A stretch of DNA of 64,000 nucleotides, from the NCBI RefSeq assembly GCF_000797445.1, contig NZ_JSWF01000017.1, positions 62,001 to 126,000 on the forward strand, read 5' to 3'. The notes below the pieces were generated by a model. That model made no database searches. It saw only the letters and a list, made by a program, of their open reading frames with translations, and was not told the origin of the DNA. This document shows positions 7,422 to 45,674 of this stretch, piece by piece. Position 1 is the stretch's first letter, and each line of letters begins with the position of its first letter. Source of the DNA: Lacinutrix jangbogonensis. Lineage in GTDB: Bacteria; Bacteroidota; Bacteroidia; Flavobacteriales; Flavobacteriaceae. The position numbers were made by a program, and so were the translations under genes.

Positions 7422-9746
7422 TTATTCAACAACAATACGTTTATTAATTATTTGTCCAGCATTTTCAATACTTAAAATATAAACAGAACTATCTAAGTTA
7501 CCTAACTGTAATGCTTTATTAAATACACCAGAATTGTTTTCAAAAGATTGCTTATTAATTAAACGACCTCTTAAATCGTAAAGACTAAAATTAATAGCAG
7601 CGTTATTTTGAGTATTAAAGGATACATTTATTTCACCTTGTGATGGATTTGGCCATAAAGATAAAGAGCTAGCTAAACTAAACTCGTCAACACTTAATGA
7701 CGTAATACCACATATTTCAATAGAGTAGTTTAAAAATGTTCCACCGTCTTCAGAAGGAAAGCCATCTGTAGCAGTTAATATCCAATCGCCTAAAGAACTT
7801 TCTCCATTAAAAGCAGATAAAGGATTAGCTGGTTGGATAGTTCCACCAACTGCTGGTGCAGAATTACTACAAACAACAGGTCCTGAAGCTTGATCATCAT
7901 AAGTTACACCAATATCATCTGTTCCATCATCACAGGCACTATTAATTAGCATAATAACCGATGTTCCATTTGGCGACGTTAACATGAGTTCTATATCTCC
8001 AGCCCAAATATGTGAGATGTTAATAGTCGAATTTAAGTCTGTAATAGACGTGTCTTGTGTAATGCTTATAGTAGAAGTAATAACATGCGCTGTATTTCCT
8101 GTACTTGGGATATTAATATTATTTTCGGTAGAATCATAGACTACACAGGCAATTGCTGCTGTTGTAAAGTTTCTTGTTCCCGAATAAGCAGAATCACCAC
8201 AACTGTTAATTGATTTTACTCTCCAAAAATATTGAGTTGAAGATGTTAATTCAGGAGTGTCGAATCCAACACTCGAAACCGTGTTAGAAGTATAATTAGC
8301 TGCAAACCCGGCATCAGTAGCCATTTCAACAGTATAACTCGTTGCGTTTGCAATGGCGTTCCAATTTAAATTTAATGTAATTGGAGTATCGGTTGCGCCA
8401 TCAGTAGGACTTATTAAAGCTGGAATAGTTGGTAGCGTACCATCAACATTTAAATCTACAGAAATAGAGTTTGTTGTAATTCCTGTACCAGTAACCGTTA
8501 TGGTATAATTTCCAGTAGCAAGACCACTTAAATTACTTAGAGTAAGTACCGTTGACCCGTCTGAACTTAATGACATTGGGTTAAACGAAGCTGTTGCTCC
8601 TCCGGGTAAATTTGTTGCAGTAAAATTAGTAGGATCTGTATTTCCTCCTGTTGAAACATAATTTAAAGTATAGGTTACAGAATCTGTTGGGTTACAAATA
8701 TTTTCTTCAGAATTGTTTGTAGTTAAAGAGAAATCTGGAGCTGCAGAACATTGTACAACATTTGGTTTAAATGTGTTTTCAATAGACATGACATAAGCTT
8801 CCGCGACTGTTGTCTGTCCTGCGCTAAACATAAACATACAAGCATCGTTTGTATAATCCATATAACTTTGAAATAATTCCTGCTCTGCTGGATTACAAGC
8901 TGGCTGACTACCTATTGCTGGACACCCACCATTTGAATTACCTTGATTTGGAGTATCGGCAATACCATCATCAGTACCACAAGAGCCAAATACATGGTCT
9001 AAGTTGTAAAAATGACCCAATTCGTGAGTTACAGTTCTACCAAGGTCGTATGGTGCACCAGGTACAATACCAGAATTAGGACAACCAGCACCAGAGCCAA
9101 AAGCACCTAAATTCATTGTTACAGAGTCTCCATTTGCAACACTTCCTGGAAAAGGAGAGAATCCTAATAGACCTCCACCAATATCTTTAACTAAGAAATT
9201 CATATAACCTCCCCAAGCAGCATCAGTAGAACCACCATTACCAAAATTATAACCAATGGTAACTGCTGGACCACCTTCAATCATATCAGGATCTAAACCT
9301 GTTGGATGATTTGTTGTAGCAATACAAAATAATAAATTTGCAGCACCTGTATTTACTCCAGGATAATTTGATGCCGCTGCAGTCCATCCTGAGATATCTG
9401 CATTAGTTCCTGTAAAATCTTCATTTAAAATATCAATTTGATTTTGAGCTAAAGCTTCTAAACAGGCTCTGTCCGATTCTTGAGCTTCAGGATAGTGAAC
9501 AGCAACTGGAATAATAATTGGGTCCATTCTACTCTTAAAGTTACCACTGAGGTTTTTATTTAGTTGCGCTTTAAATTTTGCTTGAGTCGTTTTATACTGC
9601 TTAGCATATTCTGGGTCTTTCATTTGCTCTTCCATGTATTCTAACATGCCACAAGAACGTTCTTGGGCTTCTATAGAAAAAACACACGTAACAAATGCCA
9701 TACAAAACAGTATGGATTTCTTGTTTAAAGTAGTTTTTTTGATCAT
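7422..9746 (-). CDS. secreted M43 (cytophagalysin-like) metalloprotease with P domain and T9SS tail
   Basis: This 774-residue exported protease has a signal peptide at residues 1-27 (cleavage near IEAQ). Its catalytic zinc motif HELGHFYNLDH lies at 241-251 and a downstream Met-turn SYMDYT at 294-299, matching the M43/metzincin pattern HExxHxxGxxH. A middle part with two Ig/Fn3-like beta domains (about 340-530) follows, including the tail WRVKSINSCGDSAYSG. Next comes a proprotein-convertase-like P domain (about 540-680, with SPNGTS and GDWILTATDGFPSEDGG). The C-terminal ~75 residues (LWPNPSQGEINVSF, LYDLRGRLI, SIENAGQIINKRIVVE) are a T9SS type A sorting domain. It likely acts in nutrient acquisition outside the cell. 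Confidence 0.92.
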   Translation of the reverse strand: MIKKTTLNKKSILFCMAFVTCVFSIEAQERSCGMLEYMEEQMKDPEYAKQYKTTQAKFKAQLNKNLSGNFKSRMDPIIIPVAVHYPEAQESDRACLEALAQNQIDILNEDFTGTNADISGWTAAASNYPGVNTGAANLLFCIATTNHPTGLDPDMIEGGPAVTIGYNFGNGGSTDAAWGGYMNFLVKDIGGGLLGFSPFPGSVANGDSVTMNLGAFGSGAGCPNSGIVPGAPYDLGRTVTHELGHFYNLDHVFGSCGTDDGIADTPNQGNSNGGCPAIGSQPACNPAEQELFQSYMDYTNDACMFMFSAGQTTVAEAYVMSIENTFKPNVVQCSAAPDFSLTTNNSEENICNPTDSVTYTLNYVSTGGNTDPTNFTATNLPGGATASFNPMSLSSDGSTVLTLSNLSGLATGNYTITVTGTGITTNSISVDLNVDGTLPTIPALISPTDGATDTPITLNLNWNAIANATSYTVEMATDAGFAANYTSNTVSSVGFDTPELTSSTQYFWRVKSINSCGDSAYSGTRNFTTAAIACVVYDSTENNINIPSTGNTAHVITSTISITQDTSITDLNSTINISHIWAGDIELMLTSPNGTSVIMLINSACDDGTDDIGVTYDDQASGPVVCSNSAPAVGGTIQPANPLSAFNGESSLGDWILTATDGFPSEDGGTFLNYSIEICGITSLSVDEFSLASSLSLWPNPSQGEINVSFNTQNNAAINFSLYDLRGRLINKQSFENNSGVFNKALQLGNLDSSVYILSIENAGQIINKRIVVE

Positions 9747-36116: not shown

Positions 36117-39100
36117 TTAGTAAGGCCAGTTTTTCTTTTGCCATAGTATGTATTCTGTTTCAAAAGTATTAAAACGGTTTTGGTATTCGTTTTTTGTTAT
36201 TTCGTCACCAGGAAATTGAGCTATCATTTGTAAATACATTTGTTTTAGTTTTTCGGCATGTCTTACATTAATAATGGGATGTGGTGGATTAAAAGAGGTT
36301 ATCCAGGTTAATTCTTCCCATATATTAGTCATCGCTAAAGCACATATTTCTTCAGATTTTTTTTGTAATCCAGCTCTCTTATAAAGTTTTCCCAAAGCAT
36401 AAGCATATTGCTTATAAGCAATTGTTTTATTAGGGAAAAGCGTAAACGATTTATCAACAACTGCAATGGCTTGTTTTGTTTTACCTTCTTCTAATAATGC
36501 TTGTGCTAAATAATAATAATTACGTCTTAAAATATCTTGAACATAAACTCTGTTTTCTTGTTTTATAAATTTTGTTTCATCATTTAACCCCTTAAATTGT
36601 AGTGTATCCATTAAGTAAGGGTACATCATTTTTGTATTTACAATTTTTGGATTTGCCAACGCGTCTTTTCTTTGAATAGGAATTAATTGTTCTACCATTC
36701 CATTTTGAACAAAGTAGTTTTGCAATCCTAAGTAATGACTGTCTTTACTATTTATAGCAAAACATATTGGTCTATCATGTATGTTATTTGTAATCACGTT
36801 AAATAGTACAATGTCATTTAATCCATAGAATTTTTTAGGGTAATCCCATTTTATTTCTGAAGTATAGAAAGCATTTAATTCATGAGCAACTAGACTCTTC
36901 TTTTTTATTTTTAAAGTGTCTATTGGAATGGAAAAAGTTGTTGAAGGCATATAATGTTTTAGCTTTCCGTTCCAGTTAATTTTGGTGTTACTATCTTTAA
37001 AAAAATCGAATAATAGAGGCAGTATTGCGGCTTTATTTGTTTCTCGTTGCAATGGTATTAACTTGTCTACACCATTGATGTAGAAATCGTTTTCTAAAGT
37101 GAATTTAATAGGTTTAGAGGTGTTTATTTTTTGCTTTAGTTTTTCTATATGTTTGTCTAAATTCATTTGATCAAAATTTAGTACTCTAACATCTGTTCTA
37201 TACTTTTCTACTTCTTGTAAATACCATAGCGGAAACGTCATATTATCACCATTAGTAATAAGTATTGCTTGCTCTGGACAGGCATCTAAATAGCCTTTTG
37301 CAAAATCACGAGGAAAAGTATCGTAACTGCGTTGATGATCATCCCATCCTTTAGCTAGGAGTTGCAGTGGAGCGCCAATAAAAACAAGAATAGAAGCAAC
37401 AATTAAACTTATTTTACTTGACGCTATACATTTTAACGCATTATAAAATAAGTTAATAGACAAGCCAATCCAAAGTGAAAAAATAACAAAAGAACCAATA
37501 AAAATATAATCACGCTCTCTAATCATAATACTAGAAGGCGTAGGATTAATGTATAAAGTAATACCTAAGCCAAAGGCTAAAAAGAGAAATAGTGTTGTTA
37601 AAAGATAGTGTTTATGTCTTATAAGTGACACTAAGCCTAAAAGACCTAAAATAAAAGGGATAAAATAATACGTGTTTCTACTTTTATCGTTTTTATAACG
37701 TTCTGGTGTATTAGAATAGTCGCCAACTCTAGATTTATCAATAAAGTTTATTCCGCTTACCCAATTCCCGTCTTTTATATAGCCAACACCATGATTATTG
37801 TTTTGCTTTCCAATAAAATTCCAATAGAGGTAGCGCAGATTTAGCCATGACACTTGGTAATCCATAAAAAAGCTAAAGTTCTCTTTATAGGTTGGTTTAT
37901 AAATTGTTTTGGTTTCACCATTAACAGGATAATCAATAGGTTCTCCTTTAATTGTAGTCCAAGATTTGTATTTGCTTTCATTTCTAGCATCATATAATCT
38001 AGGAAATACCATTGAAAACTCTTCAGCATAATTTACAAGCATTGCGTCACCATTATCCACAGTAACATACTTTTGTTTACTAGGATTAAAAGTTAATGTT
38101 GGTTTCCCTTTAGAGAAAGAATTGTCTTTGTCTAAAGGCGCATTGTAGGTGTACCCATTTAAAAGCGGAATACTCCCAATTCCAAATTGATCACCTTTAA
38201 TATAGTGAAGCATTCTATTGCTAGTACTCACTCCATTTGCAATTAATGTATTTGCATTAGCTCTTTGTAATGGCATGATATAAACGCTAAATCCTATTAA
38301 AAAAAACAGAAGCGCTAGAGTAATGTGTTGTAATGTGTATTTCCTTTTTTTGTGAGTTATCCAGAGTATAGACGAGAAGAATATAACGAGTAAGAGTAAC
38401 ATGATTATTACACCAATATTCACCTTTAATTTTAAAGTATTTACTAACCAAATATCTATAAAAGAAGTGATTTTTATAAGGCCTTGAATTGCAAAAAAGT
38501 AAATGCTAAAAAATAGAACACATCCAATAATTAATGAGATCACTATGTTTTTTATACTTAGCCCGAATTTTTTATAAGTAAACAATAGTGATAACGGAAT
38601 AATTATAGAAATTAATATAAGGTGTGTTCCAGAAGCAATCCCTAATAATAACGCAAATAATAAAAGTAGCTTTATCTCTTTTTGCTTATTGATAGTGCCT
38701 TCCCATTTTAACATAACGTAAAACATAATAATCAGTAATGCAAATGAAAGCGTATAGACTTCGGCTTCTGTCGCTGCTACCCAAAAACTACTTGAAAAAG
38801 CTAGGGTTAAAGCGCTAGTTACACCAGTAAAATAGGGTAGGTAAGTGGTTTCGAAACGCGATTTATGTACCTGTATTTTTGTTGTAATATAATACGTTGT
38901 TTTAAAGAGAAACGTTACTGCAAGAGCTCCAAAAAAACCAGAAATTAAATTAGAAATAAAAGCTGCTTTTGTAGCAGTAAAAAATTGTAAAATCACACTA
39001 CAAAGCATCGTGTAAAAAGGAGAACCAGGAGGATGAGTTGCTTGTAAATTATGGCTGCTTGAAATAAATTCTGGACCATCCCAAAATGGAATCGTTCTAG

Positions 39101-39173
39101 AGGCAGAAATAGCGTAGATAATAAAAACAAGCATAAAAAGAATTAAGCTTACAATTCTTTCACTCTTTATCAT
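36117..39173 (-). CDS. DUF2723 (protein O-mannosyltransferase-like) membrane protein
   Basis: This 1018-residue polytopic membrane protein has an N-terminal region (about residues 1-560) with about a dozen helices. It contains the DUF2723 signature TIPFWDGPEFISSSHNLQA followed by THPPGSPFY, whose acidic and His residues are like those of PMT-fold glycosyltransferases. A periplasmic domain follows. The C-terminal ~120 residues carry TPR-like helices (YYYLAQALLEEGKTKQAIAV). Family members likely transfer a sugar from a lipid carrier, but the substrate is unknown. It precedes the broken methyltransferase by 11 bases and follows the BNR gene. Confidence 0.85.
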   Translation of the reverse strand: MIKSERIVSLILFMLVFIIYAISASRTIPFWDGPEFISSSHNLQATHPPGSPFYTMLCSVILQFFTATKAAFISNLISGFFGALAVTFLFKTTYYITTKIQVHKSRFETTYLPYFTGVTSALTLAFSSSFWVAATEAEVYTLSFALLIIMFYVMLKWEGTINKQKEIKLLLLFALLLGIASGTHLILISIIIPLSLLFTYKKFGLSIKNIVISLIIGCVLFFSIYFFAIQGLIKITSFIDIWLVNTLKLKVNIGVIIMLLLLVIFFSSILWITHKKRKYTLQHITLALLFFLIGFSVYIMPLQRANANTLIANGVSTSNRMLHYIKGDQFGIGSIPLLNGYTYNAPLDKDNSFSKGKPTLTFNPSKQKYVTVDNGDAMLVNYAEEFSMVFPRLYDARNESKYKSWTTIKGEPIDYPVNGETKTIYKPTYKENFSFFMDYQVSWLNLRYLYWNFIGKQNNNHGVGYIKDGNWVSGINFIDKSRVGDYSNTPERYKNDKSRNTYYFIPFILGLLGLVSLIRHKHYLLTTLFLFLAFGLGITLYINPTPSSIMIRERDYIFIGSFVIFSLWIGLSINLFYNALKCIASSKISLIVASILVFIGAPLQLLAKGWDDHQRSYDTFPRDFAKGYLDACPEQAILITNGDNMTFPLWYLQEVEKYRTDVRVLNFDQMNLDKHIEKLKQKINTSKPIKFTLENDFYINGVDKLIPLQRETNKAAILPLLFDFFKDSNTKINWNGKLKHYMPSTTFSIPIDTLKIKKKSLVAHELNAFYTSEIKWDYPKKFYGLNDIVLFNVITNNIHDRPICFAINSKDSHYLGLQNYFVQNGMVEQLIPIQRKDALANPKIVNTKMMYPYLMDTLQFKGLNDETKFIKQENRVYVQDILRRNYYYLAQALLEEGKTKQAIAVVDKSFTLFPNKTIAYKQYAYALGKLYKRAGLQKKSEEICALAMTNIWEELTWITSFNPPHPIINVRHAEKLKQMYLQMIAQFPGDEITKNEYQNRFNTFETEYILWQKKNWPY

Positions 39174-41712: not shown

Positions 41713-42276
41713 ATGAATTACAAGTCTGTAAATATCGTTTTATTTCTTTTTTTAGCCATTAGCCTATCTACTTATGCTCAAAAAGGCAGCAATAGGATTG
41801 ATAAAGAGTTTCCAACACCAATTTCATTTCCATTCGATTTTTTAGGAAACTATTCTGGTAATTTAAGAGTGTCTAATGCTACAGGTACACTAGCAAACCA
41901 CCCTACAGAATTTTCAATTAAAGAAACAGAGACTAAAGGTGAATTTGTTTATAGCATCTCTTATTTTATAGGTAAAGAAAAACAGGCAATTAACTACCAA
42001 CTCAGAACTATTGATCAAGACAAAGGATTTTATGCTATAAAAGACGATTCTGGCATGGAATTTACAGCCATACAAATAGAGAATATTTTATATTCAACAG
42101 TAGAAATAGACAACACTATTTTATTTACAACATTACATTTTACAAACGACGAAAAAGTACGTTTAAATATTTTCCTTTCGGAAAAAGTAACTGTAAATAA
42201 GAAAAATAAAAATCAAGCAAAATCTGCTAATATTGTTTTAATGCAAAAAGCAGTTTTTAGTAAAGTATACAATTAA
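41713..42276 (+). CDS. small exported hypothetical protein
   Basis: This 187-residue protein has a clear signal peptide (MNYKSVNIVLFLFLAISLST, cleaved near YAQ). A mostly beta-strand region follows (YSGNLRVSNATGTLANHPTE, FYAIKDDSGMEFTAIQIEN) and then a basic Lys/Asn-rich end (NKKNKNQAKSAN). No family is recognised. It starts 29 bases before the large repeat protein gene, so both are almost certainly co-transcribed and may function together at the surface. The length and signal suggest a periplasmic or surface accessory protein. Confidence 0.75.
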   Translation: MNYKSVNIVLFLFLAISLSTYAQKGSNRIDKEFPTPISFPFDFLGNYSGNLRVSNATGTLANHPTEFSIKETETKGEFVYSISYFIGKEKQAINYQLRTIDQDKGFYAIKDDSGMEFTAIQIENILYSTVEIDNTILFTTLHFTNDEKVRLNIFLSEKVTVNKKNKNQAKSANIVLMQKAVFSKVYN

Positions 42277-42305: not shown

Positions 42306-45300
42306 ATGAAGAAATTTTATCTTTTATTATGTGCAGTATTACTTTCCGTAGTAAGCATGCAAGCACAAACCCTTAACGAAACCCAAGGAATTAATGGAGT
42401 GGATATTTCATCTGGAGTGAATATTACCTCAGGAGATTTCAATACTTTTTATGGCGATAGTACAGGAAGTTTTATAACTTCTGGCTCAAGAATGGTACTC
42501 ATGGGTTACGCTGCTGGTCGTAGTATGACCACGTCAAGTGAGTTAATAGCCATTGGTTACCTTGCAGGATACTCTAATACCTCAGGTTTCGATAACACAT
42601 TTATAGGTTATGAAGCAGGACGTTTAAATACGTCTGGTGGCGATAACACCTTTATAGGTGCGGAATCTGGAGAAATGAACACTACTGGTTATGATAACAC
42701 GTTCGTTGGAGAGGAATCTGGAACGAATAACACCACAGGTTATGAAAATACATTCATTGGAGAAGATGCAGGTTTTAGTAATACTACAGGTTATAAACAA
42801 ACTTTTATTGGTAATGAAGTAGGAATATCATCAGACGTTGGTTACAGAAATACAGGTGTTGGTAGTGAGTCTATGAGTGATGTAGACGAAGGTCACCATA
42901 ATACAGGTCTAGGAGATTCTGCAGCTATAGATATTGGAGATGGTATTTATAATACTATGGTTGGAGCAGCAGCAGGTGTTGCAACAGAATATGGAGATTA
43001 TAACACCTTTATTGGTGCACAAGCCGGTTGGGATAACAACCGTACAAACAATACAACAAACGCAAACCACAATACGTATTTAGGGTTCTCTGCGGGTTTT
43101 ACAAACAGAGAAGGACAATATAATGTAGGTATTGGGTCGTTAGCAGATTTTGATAACAACAACAGATCTAACGCTCTCTTTATTGGATATGATCTTACTG
43201 TAGGTAACAACAACATTCTTGGAATTGGTAACAGAGCCTTTGCAGATGGACAATACTCGGTTTCTTTAGGACACGATCATGATATAAGAGGACAAAACTC
43301 TATTATGATGGGTTATTTAGGAAACATGCAAGCCTTAGCCGATTATTCAGTTGGTATTGGAGATAGAGTCGATATTGAAGAAAATGACGTGGTAGGTATT
43401 GGTAATTTAGTAGATGTTGACAATCAACAAGCGGTTGCTATAGGTTCTAATACGGTAGCGCAAAATGATGGTGCCATTGTAATTGGTTATGCAGCTACTT
43501 CAACAGATCCAACCGCTTTAGATCCTACAAATAATATTGCTATTGGACATTCAGTAAATGTACAAGGTACAAATGCTGTTGCTATTGGTAATGCTGCAAC
43601 AGCTTCAAATGATAATACAATGGTATTAGGTGGAGTTACAAATCCACTAAGTGTTGGTATTGGTACAGATACACCAAACGCAAAAGCATCTTTAGACTTA
43701 ACAGGAACAACCAAAGGGTTACAACTAAACCGTATGCTAACAGCAGAACGTACTGCATTTGGAACGACTTTAGCAGTTGTTGATGAAGGAATGGTTGTTT
43801 ATGATAACGAATTAGATAATATGTACTATTGGGATGGAACAGCTTGGCAAACAAGTTCAAATACCGATGGACAAGCACTTTCAGTAGCAGCAAATGTATT
43901 AAGTATAACAGGCGATGCTGGTACAGTAGATTTATCTGGATATTTAGATAATACTGATACACAAGCACTTTCAGTAGCAGCAAACGTATTAAGTATAACG
44001 GGCGATGCAGGAACAGTAGATTTATCTAGTTATTTAGATAATACAGATACACAAACCTTAGCATTAGATGGTTCAAATAACTTAAGTATTGCAGGTGGAA
44101 ACAGTGTTGATTTATCTGGTTTATCAGATGGAACAGGAACAGACTCTCAAACTTTAGCATTAGACGGTTCAAATAACTTAAGTATTGCAGGCGGAAACAG
44201 TATAGATTTATCAGGATTAGCCGATGGAACAGGAACAGATTCACAAACTTTAGCCTTAGATGGTTCAAATAACTTAAGTATTGCAGGCGGAAACAGTGTA
44301 GATTTATCTGGTTTATCAGATGGCACAGGAACAGATTCTCAAACTTTAGTATTAGACGGTTCTAACAACTTAAGTATTGCAGGTGGAAACAGTGTAGATT
44401 TATCTGGTTTAGCCGATGGCACAGGAACAGATAGTCAAGCACTTTCAGTAGCAGCAAATGTATTAAGTATCACAGGAGATGCAGGAACAGTAGATTTATC
44501 TAGTTATTTAGATAATACAGATACACAAACCTTAGCTTTAGACGGTTCTAACAACTTAAGTATTGCAGGCGGAAACAGTGTAGATTTATCTGGTTTATCA
44601 GATGGAACAGGAACAGATTCTCAAACATTAGCATTAGACGGTTCTAACAACTTAAGTATTGCGGGTGGAAACAGTGTTGATTTATCTGGTTTAGCCGATG
44701 GTACAGGAACAGATAGTCAAGCGCTTTCTGTAGCAGCAAATGTATTAAGTATCACAGGTGATGCAGGAACAGTAGATTTATCTAGTTATTTAGATAATAC
44801 AGATACACAAACCTTAGCTTTAGACGGTTCAAACAACTTAAGTATTGCAGGCGGAAACAGTGTAGATTTATCTGGTTTAGCAGATGGTACAGGAACAGAT
44901 TCTCAAACCTTAGCTTTAGATGGTTCAAGCAACTTAAGTATTGCAGGCGGAAACAGTGTAGATTTATCTGGTTTAGCAGATGGTACAGGAACAGATTCTC
45001 AAACTTTAGCATTAGACGGTTCTAACAACTTAAGTATTGCAGGTGGGAACAGTGTAGATTTATCTGGTTTAGCAGATGGTACAGGAACAGATTCTCAAAC
45101 TTTAGCATTAGACGGTTCTAACAACTTAAGTATTGCAGGTGGAAACAGTGTAGATTTATCTGGTTTAGTAGATGGTACAGGAACAGATAACCAAAACTTA
45201 GCTTCTGCAACATTAAGTGGAAATACATTAACTGTAGCTATTGAAAGTGGAACTTCTGTAAACGTAGATTTATCTCCAATCTTAGCAACATTAGAAGCTG

Positions 45301-45674
45301 AAAACACAGCGCAACAATTACAAATTGATGATTTACTAGCAAGAATGGATGCACGTGAATTATGTGGATGTAATACCTTAACAGCTGTAGAACATAATCA
45401 TGATGCTGAATCTAGAGGCCCTATTTTATACCAAAATATTCCAAACCCTTATAACGGAACAACATCTATTAAATATTTTGTACCAACAGATAATAAGAAT
45501 GCTGCCATCGTATTTAGTAACAATGCAGGACAAGTTATAGATAACGTTGAACTTAAAAACTTAGGTGAGCAAGAAATATATTTTAATAGTGAGTCTCTTT
45601 CTAGTGGTTTATATTACTATACTTTATATGTTAATGGTAGTAGAATAGATACTAAAAAAATGATTGTAGATTAA
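42306..45674 (+). CDS. YadA-head-like adhesin with stalk repeats and T9SS C-terminal domain
   Basis: This 1122-residue protein has a signal peptide (1-21). Residues about 40-460 are degenerate repeats such as NTFIGYEAG and AVAIGNAATA, like the left-handed beta-roll head of trimeric autotransporter adhesins (AIG..A pattern). A junction (ASLDLTGTTKGLQLNRMLTA, MYYWDGTAWQ) follows. Residues 523-962 are fourteen tandem repeats, four of 30 residues (QALSVAANVLSITGDAGTVD...) and ten of 32 (QTLALDGSNNLSIAGGNSVD...). Next is a short coiled-coil segment, and the last ~75 residues (NIPNPYNGTTSIKYFVPTDN to KKMIVD) are a T9SS type A tail. It lacks the usual type V beta-barrel anchor. It is likely a surface adhesin fibre. 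Confidence 0.88.
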   Translation: MKKFYLLLCAVLLSVVSMQAQTLNETQGINGVDISSGVNITSGDFNTFYGDSTGSFITSGSRMVLMGYAAGRSMTTSSELIAIGYLAGYSNTSGFDNTFIGYEAGRLNTSGGDNTFIGAESGEMNTTGYDNTFVGEESGTNNTTGYENTFIGEDAGFSNTTGYKQTFIGNEVGISSDVGYRNTGVGSESMSDVDEGHHNTGLGDSAAIDIGDGIYNTMVGAAAGVATEYGDYNTFIGAQAGWDNNRTNNTTNANHNTYLGFSAGFTNREGQYNVGIGSLADFDNNNRSNALFIGYDLTVGNNNILGIGNRAFADGQYSVSLGHDHDIRGQNSIMMGYLGNMQALADYSVGIGDRVDIEENDVVGIGNLVDVDNQQAVAIGSNTVAQNDGAIVIGYAATSTDPTALDPTNNIAIGHSVNVQGTNAVAIGNAATASNDNTMVLGGVTNPLSVGIGTDTPNAKASLDLTGTTKGLQLNRMLTAERTAFGTTLAVVDEGMVVYDNELDNMYYWDGTAWQTSSNTDGQALSVAANVLSITGDAGTVDLSGYLDNTDTQALSVAANVLSITGDAGTVDLSSYLDNTDTQTLALDGSNNLSIAGGNSVDLSGLSDGTGTDSQTLALDGSNNLSIAGGNSIDLSGLADGTGTDSQTLALDGSNNLSIAGGNSVDLSGLSDGTGTDSQTLVLDGSNNLSIAGGNSVDLSGLADGTGTDSQALSVAANVLSITGDAGTVDLSSYLDNTDTQTLALDGSNNLSIAGGNSVDLSGLSDGTGTDSQTLALDGSNNLSIAGGNSVDLSGLADGTGTDSQALSVAANVLSITGDAGTVDLSSYLDNTDTQTLALDGSNNLSIAGGNSVDLSGLADGTGTDSQTLALDGSSNLSIAGGNSVDLSGLADGTGTDSQTLALDGSNNLSIAGGNSVDLSGLADGTGTDSQTLALDGSNNLSIAGGNSVDLSGLVDGTGTDNQNLASATLSGNTLTVAIESGTSVNVDLSPILATLEAENTAQQLQIDDLLARMDARELCGCNTLTAVEHNHDAESRGPILYQNIPNPYNGTTSIKYFVPTDNKNAAIVFSNNAGQVIDNVELKNLGEQEIYFNSESLSSGLYYYTLYVNGSRIDTKKMIVD
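43872..45191 (+). repeat. tandem coding repeats of 90 and 96 bases
   Basis: Exactly 1320 bases: four 90-base A units and ten 96-base B units in the order AABBBBABBABBBB, coding residues 523-962 of the adhesin. Units differ mostly by silent changes, so copies probably arose by recent duplication or recombination. This region is prone to length variation and to misassembly. Confidence 0.9.

Follow-up and report, generated by a model that had tools for sequence, protein, structure and literature searches.

The window analyzed here is a stretch of 64,000 nucleotides of Lacinutrix jangbogonensis (contig NZ_JSWF01000017.1, positions 62,001 to 126,000 of the forward strand), and the subject of this text is one gene within it. 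An ATG-initiated open reading frame (ORF) at 42306-45674 on the plus strand is translated into a single protein of 1122 amino acids. The original prediction had read this protein as a YadA-like head and stalk, a short coiled coil and a tail for the type IX secretion system (T9SS), and a repeat head, a stalk, a helix and a T9SS tail were all found within the one ORF. Judged by its sequence, it looks like a T9SS-tailed head-and-stalk protein of a Flavobacteriaceae genome, apparently built as a three-stranded surface fibre. Its parts, in window positions, are the following.

42306..42365, plus strand: Sec signal peptide, residues 1-20, placed by eye (cut between SMQA and QTLNE)
42438..43175, plus strand: head part 1, residues 45-290, 17-residue repeats NTFIGxxAGxxNTTGYx, from periodicity and a PHROG match
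43176..43655, plus strand: head part 2, residues 291-450, YadA-type 14-residue repeats AVAIGxxA, from PF05658 and a period of 14
43644..43865, plus strand: linker, residues 447-520, VGIGTDTPN..KGLQLNRM..ERT..VYD..YYWDGTAW, kept in relatives
43866..45185, plus strand: stalk, residues 521-960, 14 repeats of 30 or 32 amino acids, from periodicity and sequence
45186..45290, plus strand: variant fifteenth repeat, residues 961-995, opening the conserved C-terminal cassette, from alignment
45273..45365, plus strand: coiled-coil helix, residues 990-1020, with RMDARE near its end (RhxxhE in relatives), from model and alignment
45363..45371, plus strand: CxC motif, Cys1020 and Cys1022, the sole cysteines outside the signal peptide
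45441..45668, plus strand: T9SS type A C-terminal sorting domain, residues 1046-1121, from PF18962, TIGR04183 and a modelled six-strand domain

The sorting domain matches PF18962 (Por_Secre_tail) with 28.6 bits against a cut-off of 27 and TIGR04183 with 23.1 bits against 23, and its six-strand model has predicted local distance difference test (pLDDT) values of 67 to 84 by block of ten residues. The tails of relatives score similarly, at 31.4 (L149), 24.2 (L148), 27.5 (L156), 29.8 (L162) and 21.1 bits (L039). The same genome encodes SprA (2720 bits), the T9SS sortase PorU (1337 bits) and PorV (445 bits). With both tail models over their cut-offs and the three components searched for all present, the predicted type A tail held up, and assignment of the protein to the T9SS is likely. 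Elsewhere in the window, another ORF with a T9SS tail lies at 7422-9746 on the minus strand (774 amino acids; tail 48.5 bits at 7428-7658).

What is new here is that relatives of the window protein share a cassette, RhxxhE-x-C-x-C (h, hydrophobic), placed directly before the T9SS tail. RhxxhE is a coiled-coil trimerization motif, according to PMC5940361. All 14 proteins of our alignment A1 have the Arg, Glu and both Cys of R-h-x-x-h-E-x-C-x-C, a segment that is RMDARELCGC in the window protein. Among 28 distinct cassette proteins, CxC occurs in 27, R....E.C.C in 25 and the strict RhxxhE-x-CxC (hydrophobic at a and d) in 22, counts in which CxC is favoured because the later finds were gathered with profile A1, all 14 rows of which carry it; the DNA patterns used to gather relatives fall within the tail only. 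In 134 control T9SS-tailed ORFs, searched over the 120 residues before the tail, neither CxC nor the two motifs together occurred (0/134 each). The CxC cysteines are the only two of the mature chain in 16 of the 28 cassette proteins, the window protein included; nine or ten others have more cysteines or are fragmentary, and L039 has none. The motif also has a direction: in the 100 residues before the tail of head-bearing T9SS-tailed proteins, RhxxhE is found in 14/19 and the reversed EhxxhR in 0/19 (shuffle mean 0.23), and in the last 60 residues of tail-less head-bearing proteins in 16/47 against 2/47 reversed, with RAKYAE matches, which lie in no coiled coil, removed. The profile of the cassette found no convincing match among solved structures (best E 0.43).

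Of 397 family genomes, 21 contain the cassette (profile A1, at least 133 bits), at 26 places in all, but it was not found in the two other genomes listed for the genus, and its spread is thus patchy; the named loci belong to Flavobacteriaceae. A repeat head, called at six or more matches of the head pattern, is carried by 14 of the 28 cassette proteins; the N-termini of the remaining 14 are different. Mapping the head label on the cassette tree takes three changes, at least two of which are forced by well-supported branches. Some cassette genes stand in tandem (L166 and L167 in G033 and G259, L161 in G135), pairing a long copy that bears the head with a shorter copy that lacks it, or else two adjoining head-bearing copies.

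The short coiled coil that had been predicted is seen as a single modelled helix (pLDDT 55 to 74 by block of ten). Preceding it, residues 521-990 show 59% identity at a lag of 32, with a top shuffle of 17%, and the fourteen stalk repeats were confirmed together with the variant fifteenth at residue 961. The stalk is modelled mostly as three strands per repeat at low confidence; for residues 441-1122 (4-row alignment), pLDDT is 53 and the predicted template modelling score (pTM) 0.39. Such low values are expected of a stalk that might fold only as a trimer and equally of any poorly sampled sequence. A stalk-repeat profile gave no convincing match among solved structures (best E 0.72); the stalk may bear some resemblance to a triple beta-spiral. 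A rough motif count puts the stalk of head-bearing cassette members anywhere between about 2 and about 22 repeats long. Relatives with other heads or other tails share the linker, which is about 74 residues long and has weak PHROG matches to phage tail proteins.

The head is composite. Identity at a lag of 17 is 46% over residues 45-245 (top of 200 shuffles, 18%), and at a lag of 14 it is 20.5% over residues 291-450, a much weaker periodicity (top shuffle 18.5%). PF05658 (YadA_head; cut-off 25) scores 31.5 bits on the whole protein, with its best stretch at 421-442, and 34.1 bits on the piece 306-465; in a six-frame search, single YadA_head stretches reached 24.2 and 20.7 bits, both below the cut-off. 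The piece covering head part 1 (residues 21-313) matched no Pfam family; its PHROG matches are to tail spike and virion structural families, with E-values between 2e-23 and 7e-15. The YadA-like head of the original prediction is therefore sustained for part 2, with its 14-residue repeats and PF05658 match, but not for part 1, whose 17-residue repeats are like those of phage tail spikes. Modelled as a single chain (3-row alignment), the head is all beta, with a mean pLDDT of 66 and a pTM of 0.62, a model that does not confirm the left-handed beta-roll suggested in the original prediction. It probably forms the distal part of the fibre and probably the binding part.

The protein lacks a type V barrel of its own, as had been proposed: YadA_anchor (PF03895) is absent from its Pfam matches (E up to 10) and from all 149 family genomes searched, with an E. 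coli positive control detected. In the phylum, the anchor occurs in 13 of 395 genomes, none of them Flavobacteriaceae, and 12 of the 13 belong to a single other family. The 29 head-bearing genomes of the phylum sample do not overlap with these 13. Of two YadA-anchor proteins from the other family, one carries the Pfam anchor (2e-11) and the second no Pfam family at E 0.001; neither has YadA_head, so the contrast tells little about heads.

Searching the family with the window protein, we obtained matches at E 1e-10 or better in 52 of 199 genomes, some via the stalk alone. The closest relative (G179, locus L004/L149) shares 80% over residues 6-584. The close head relatives L008, L014 and L017 end without a T9SS tail. 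A common domain, ...VSVPYALRAKYAEN..., and a coiled coil close these three and L002, all of which have the head or linker of the window protein but neither T9SS tail nor anchor.

We gathered 71 head-bearing ORFs, dropped four cut by contig ends and removed one duplicate (L224, identical to L031). The remaining 66, a set enriched in cassette proteins fetched on purpose and not an even sample, comprise 13 with a T9SS tail and the CxC cassette, one with a T9SS tail and no CxC (L039), five with S74 and a T9SS tail, 14 with S74 and no tail, and 33 with neither. Head repeats and a T9SS tail, the combination that the prediction had proposed to look for, thus occur together in 19/66. From the family search, only 10 head loci that do not belong to the cassette set were classed; many more head matches had no locus and were left out. 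From the phylum search came 40 newly fetched distinct ORFs, 26 with neither end, 11 with S74 and three with S74 and a T9SS tail; counted with the window protein and two cassette ORFs of genome G320, they give a fairer figure of 6/43 for the T9SS tail. At E 0.0005, Pfam finds six families in 67 head-bearing C-terminal pieces, with S74 in 26, Por_Secre_tail in 15 and YadA_anchor in none. The calls vary with the method: S74 is called in 19/66 by regular expression and 26/67 by Pfam, and the T9SS tail in 19/66 by our own profile, 17/67 by Pfam at E 0.01 and 15/67 at E 0.0005. S74 combined with a T9SS tail is seen, for example, in the head-bearing L049, L072, L226 and L228. In phages, S74 cuts itself off after trimerization; in these proteins it sits ahead of a secretion signal. 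The window protein has no match to this chaperone (PF13884).

The original prediction had gone further, in holding that the T9SS replaces the type V barrel. This part was not supported, given a phage-like head part 1, ends that are S74, coiled-coil or T9SS, and no anchor among the 67. To speak of the T9SS in place of a type V barrel fits the window protein but probably not its history; the head appears to belong to a tail-fibre-like pool with exchanged ends. The protein may be better described as a set of tail-fibre-like modules whose ends can be swapped; that it descends from a type V protein which lost its barrel is not evident, and the comparison with type V is best taken as an analogy rather than as shown descent.

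How might such a protein be exported and assembled? We think it somewhat probable that it is a type A cargo of the T9SS that makes up a surface fibre as a homotrimer. There are good grounds for the trimer, though it is unproven, and they are weaker for the window copy, which has an Arg at a core position of the motif; an adhesive role is suggested by the architecture only. According to PMC10994853, the sorting domain of a type A cargo binds PorV inside SprA and the cargo exits tail-first by a lateral opening, and the translocon is described with one cargo chain and one sorting domain. A review states that most T9SS cargos fold in the periplasm before export and that, for the T9SS in general, cargo is surface-anchored or released after PorU cleavage (PMC5445135). 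For this protein, entry to the periplasm would be by Sec, the C-terminal domain would bring it to PorV and SprA, and it would leave the cell tail-first, after which PorU would remove the tail and the protein would be anchored or released. On tail-first exit, the tail-adjacent helix would be the first non-tail segment outside and would, with its trimerization motif and CxC, set the register of three chains. The CxC may lock these chains by disulfides, giving a base that is possibly disulfide-locked, and the stalk and then the head would fold from base to tip. Trimeric autotransporters are likewise thought to fold from their anchor towards the tip. It is also possible that a finished trimer is exported with three sorting domains, an order that the periplasmic folding of most cargos, as given in PMC5445135, would favour. 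A wider proposal, which we hold tentatively and consider doubtful as a whole, is that the T9SS exports and assembles homotrimeric fibres independently of type V, three chains leaving tail-first and zipping together outside. The Flavobacteriaceae cassette, made up of the RhxxhE trimerization helix, a CxC disulfide ring and the type A sorting domain, would then be a plug-in base on which heads and stalks, the latter differing widely in length, are swapped. No trimeric T9SS cargo is described in the titles or abstract openings of the open-licence PMC literature searched; a Riemerella paper was dropped as 'trimeric' occurs in its references only, and a Flavobacterium collinsii paper as 'Yada' there is an author's name only, so far as the searched text of each goes.

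Several observations weigh against a trimeric T9SS fibre. The window tail barely exceeds its cut-offs, falls just below that of PF18962 (26.7 bits) when scanned in a 300-residue piece, and ranks 75th by E-value among the 85 type A tail matches of the genome, some of which are fragments. Confidence in the modelled stalk is poor (pLDDT about 50), and neither the head (best profile E 0.09) nor the whole protein (best E 0.06) gave a convincing match to solved structures by sequence. RhxxhE is present in 12 of the 134 control ORFs, the window copy, with its Arg at d, departs from it, five others of the 28 depart from it too, and the Aquimarina protein L039 lacks CxC. Tail-less relatives also show EhxxhK (16/48) and KhxxhE (8/48), so charged heptads account for part of the RhxxhE signal.

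As for the CxC, it could serve in metal binding or redox chemistry, or form a disulfide within one chain, and not be an interchain lock; this is possible though short of an even chance, would alter one step only and is compatible with a trimer. The pair directly follows the coiled coil and would put up to six thiols round the threefold axis, and metal is bound at comparable positions in phage spike tips. Close to the CxC, however, A1 has no invariant residues other than Arg55 and Glu60, which belong to the trimerization motif.

We regard as rather unlikely, though it has to be taken seriously, that the protein is a monomeric T9SS-secreted repeat protein, with a single-chain beta-solenoid head, a stalk of single-chain beta units and the helix as a spacer. 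The single-chain head model, the departing RMDARE motif and the one C-terminal domain bound in the SprA pore, as in PMC10994853, all agree with it. Yet the cassette keeps RhxxhE-x-CxC, which none of 134 other T9SS-tailed ORFs shows, many tail-less relatives likewise end in RhxxhE, the stalk has no confident fold as a monomer, and a single-chain solenoid is compatible with a trimer of solenoids too.

The surroundings of the gene bear on the remaining reading. A gene for a 187-residue protein with an apparent signal peptide (window 41713-42276, plus strand) ends 29 bases before the fibre gene and has no Pfam or NCBIfam match; it was rejected as an operon partner, having no homologue beside the fibre-gene relatives collected by then. 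Five of six further neighbours are cellular (a TMEM260-like O-mannosyl-transferase, BNR_4, peptidase M42, DUF4294 and HlyIII), and the sixth, directly downstream, has no family match, which suggests neither a prophage nor a dedicated partner, in scans that did not include PHROGs. The TMEM260-like protein O-mannosyl-transferase (window 36117-39173, minus strand) is encoded some 3 kb away from the fibre gene, and O-glycosylation of the threonine- and serine-rich fibre by it is a thought. Promoters numbered 19 against 21.0 expected and terminators 0 against 1.9. The head was not found in viral contigs, and two plasmid records, both from Hymenobacter, match and are annotated as tail fiber domain-containing protein. 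That the protein is a prophage or domesticated tail-fibre protein and not a cell-surface protein is very improbable: it would agree with the PHROG matches of head part 1, the S74 chaperones of relatives and 38 matches among 50,697 phage records (28-37% identity among the 20 matches listed), but the signal peptide, the T9SS tail and the cellular neighbours speak against it, as does a cassette profile that reaches just five viral contigs, at 27-40% identity and four of them via the tail alone.

Should the trimeric fibre be correct, trimeric surface fibres could be made by a second route, in a family whose searched genomes yielded no YadA anchor. An obligate trimeric cargo forces a choice between export of a folded trimer with three sorting domains and chain-by-chain export with assembly outside, and the cassette, with two cysteines and a defined helix, offers a compact substrate on which that choice can be tested directly.

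Set beside known systems, the window protein is like the type Vc autotransporter YadA in its signal peptide, its N-terminal head with 14-residue YadA_head repeats, its stalk, its coiled coil towards the C-terminus and the order of these parts. It differs in ending in a T9SS sorting domain where type Vc has the YadA_anchor barrel, in the phage-like 17-residue repeats of head part 1, in a stalk that appears to be a beta-type repeat with a coiled coil of only about 31 residues, and in its CxC cassette. Phage tail spikes are trimers. With phage tail spikes and fibres and with the S74 'tail fiber domain-containing proteins' it has the repeats of head part 1 and the linker in common, and some relatives join the head to S74; unlike them, it is without S74 and has secretion signals at both ends. 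Finally, it is like the T9SS type A cargos (RemA, RemZ, the gingipains and others) in its Sec signal and type A sorting domain, and like their hosts its genome carries SprA, PorV and PorU, but unlike theirs its passenger resembles a trimeric fibre.

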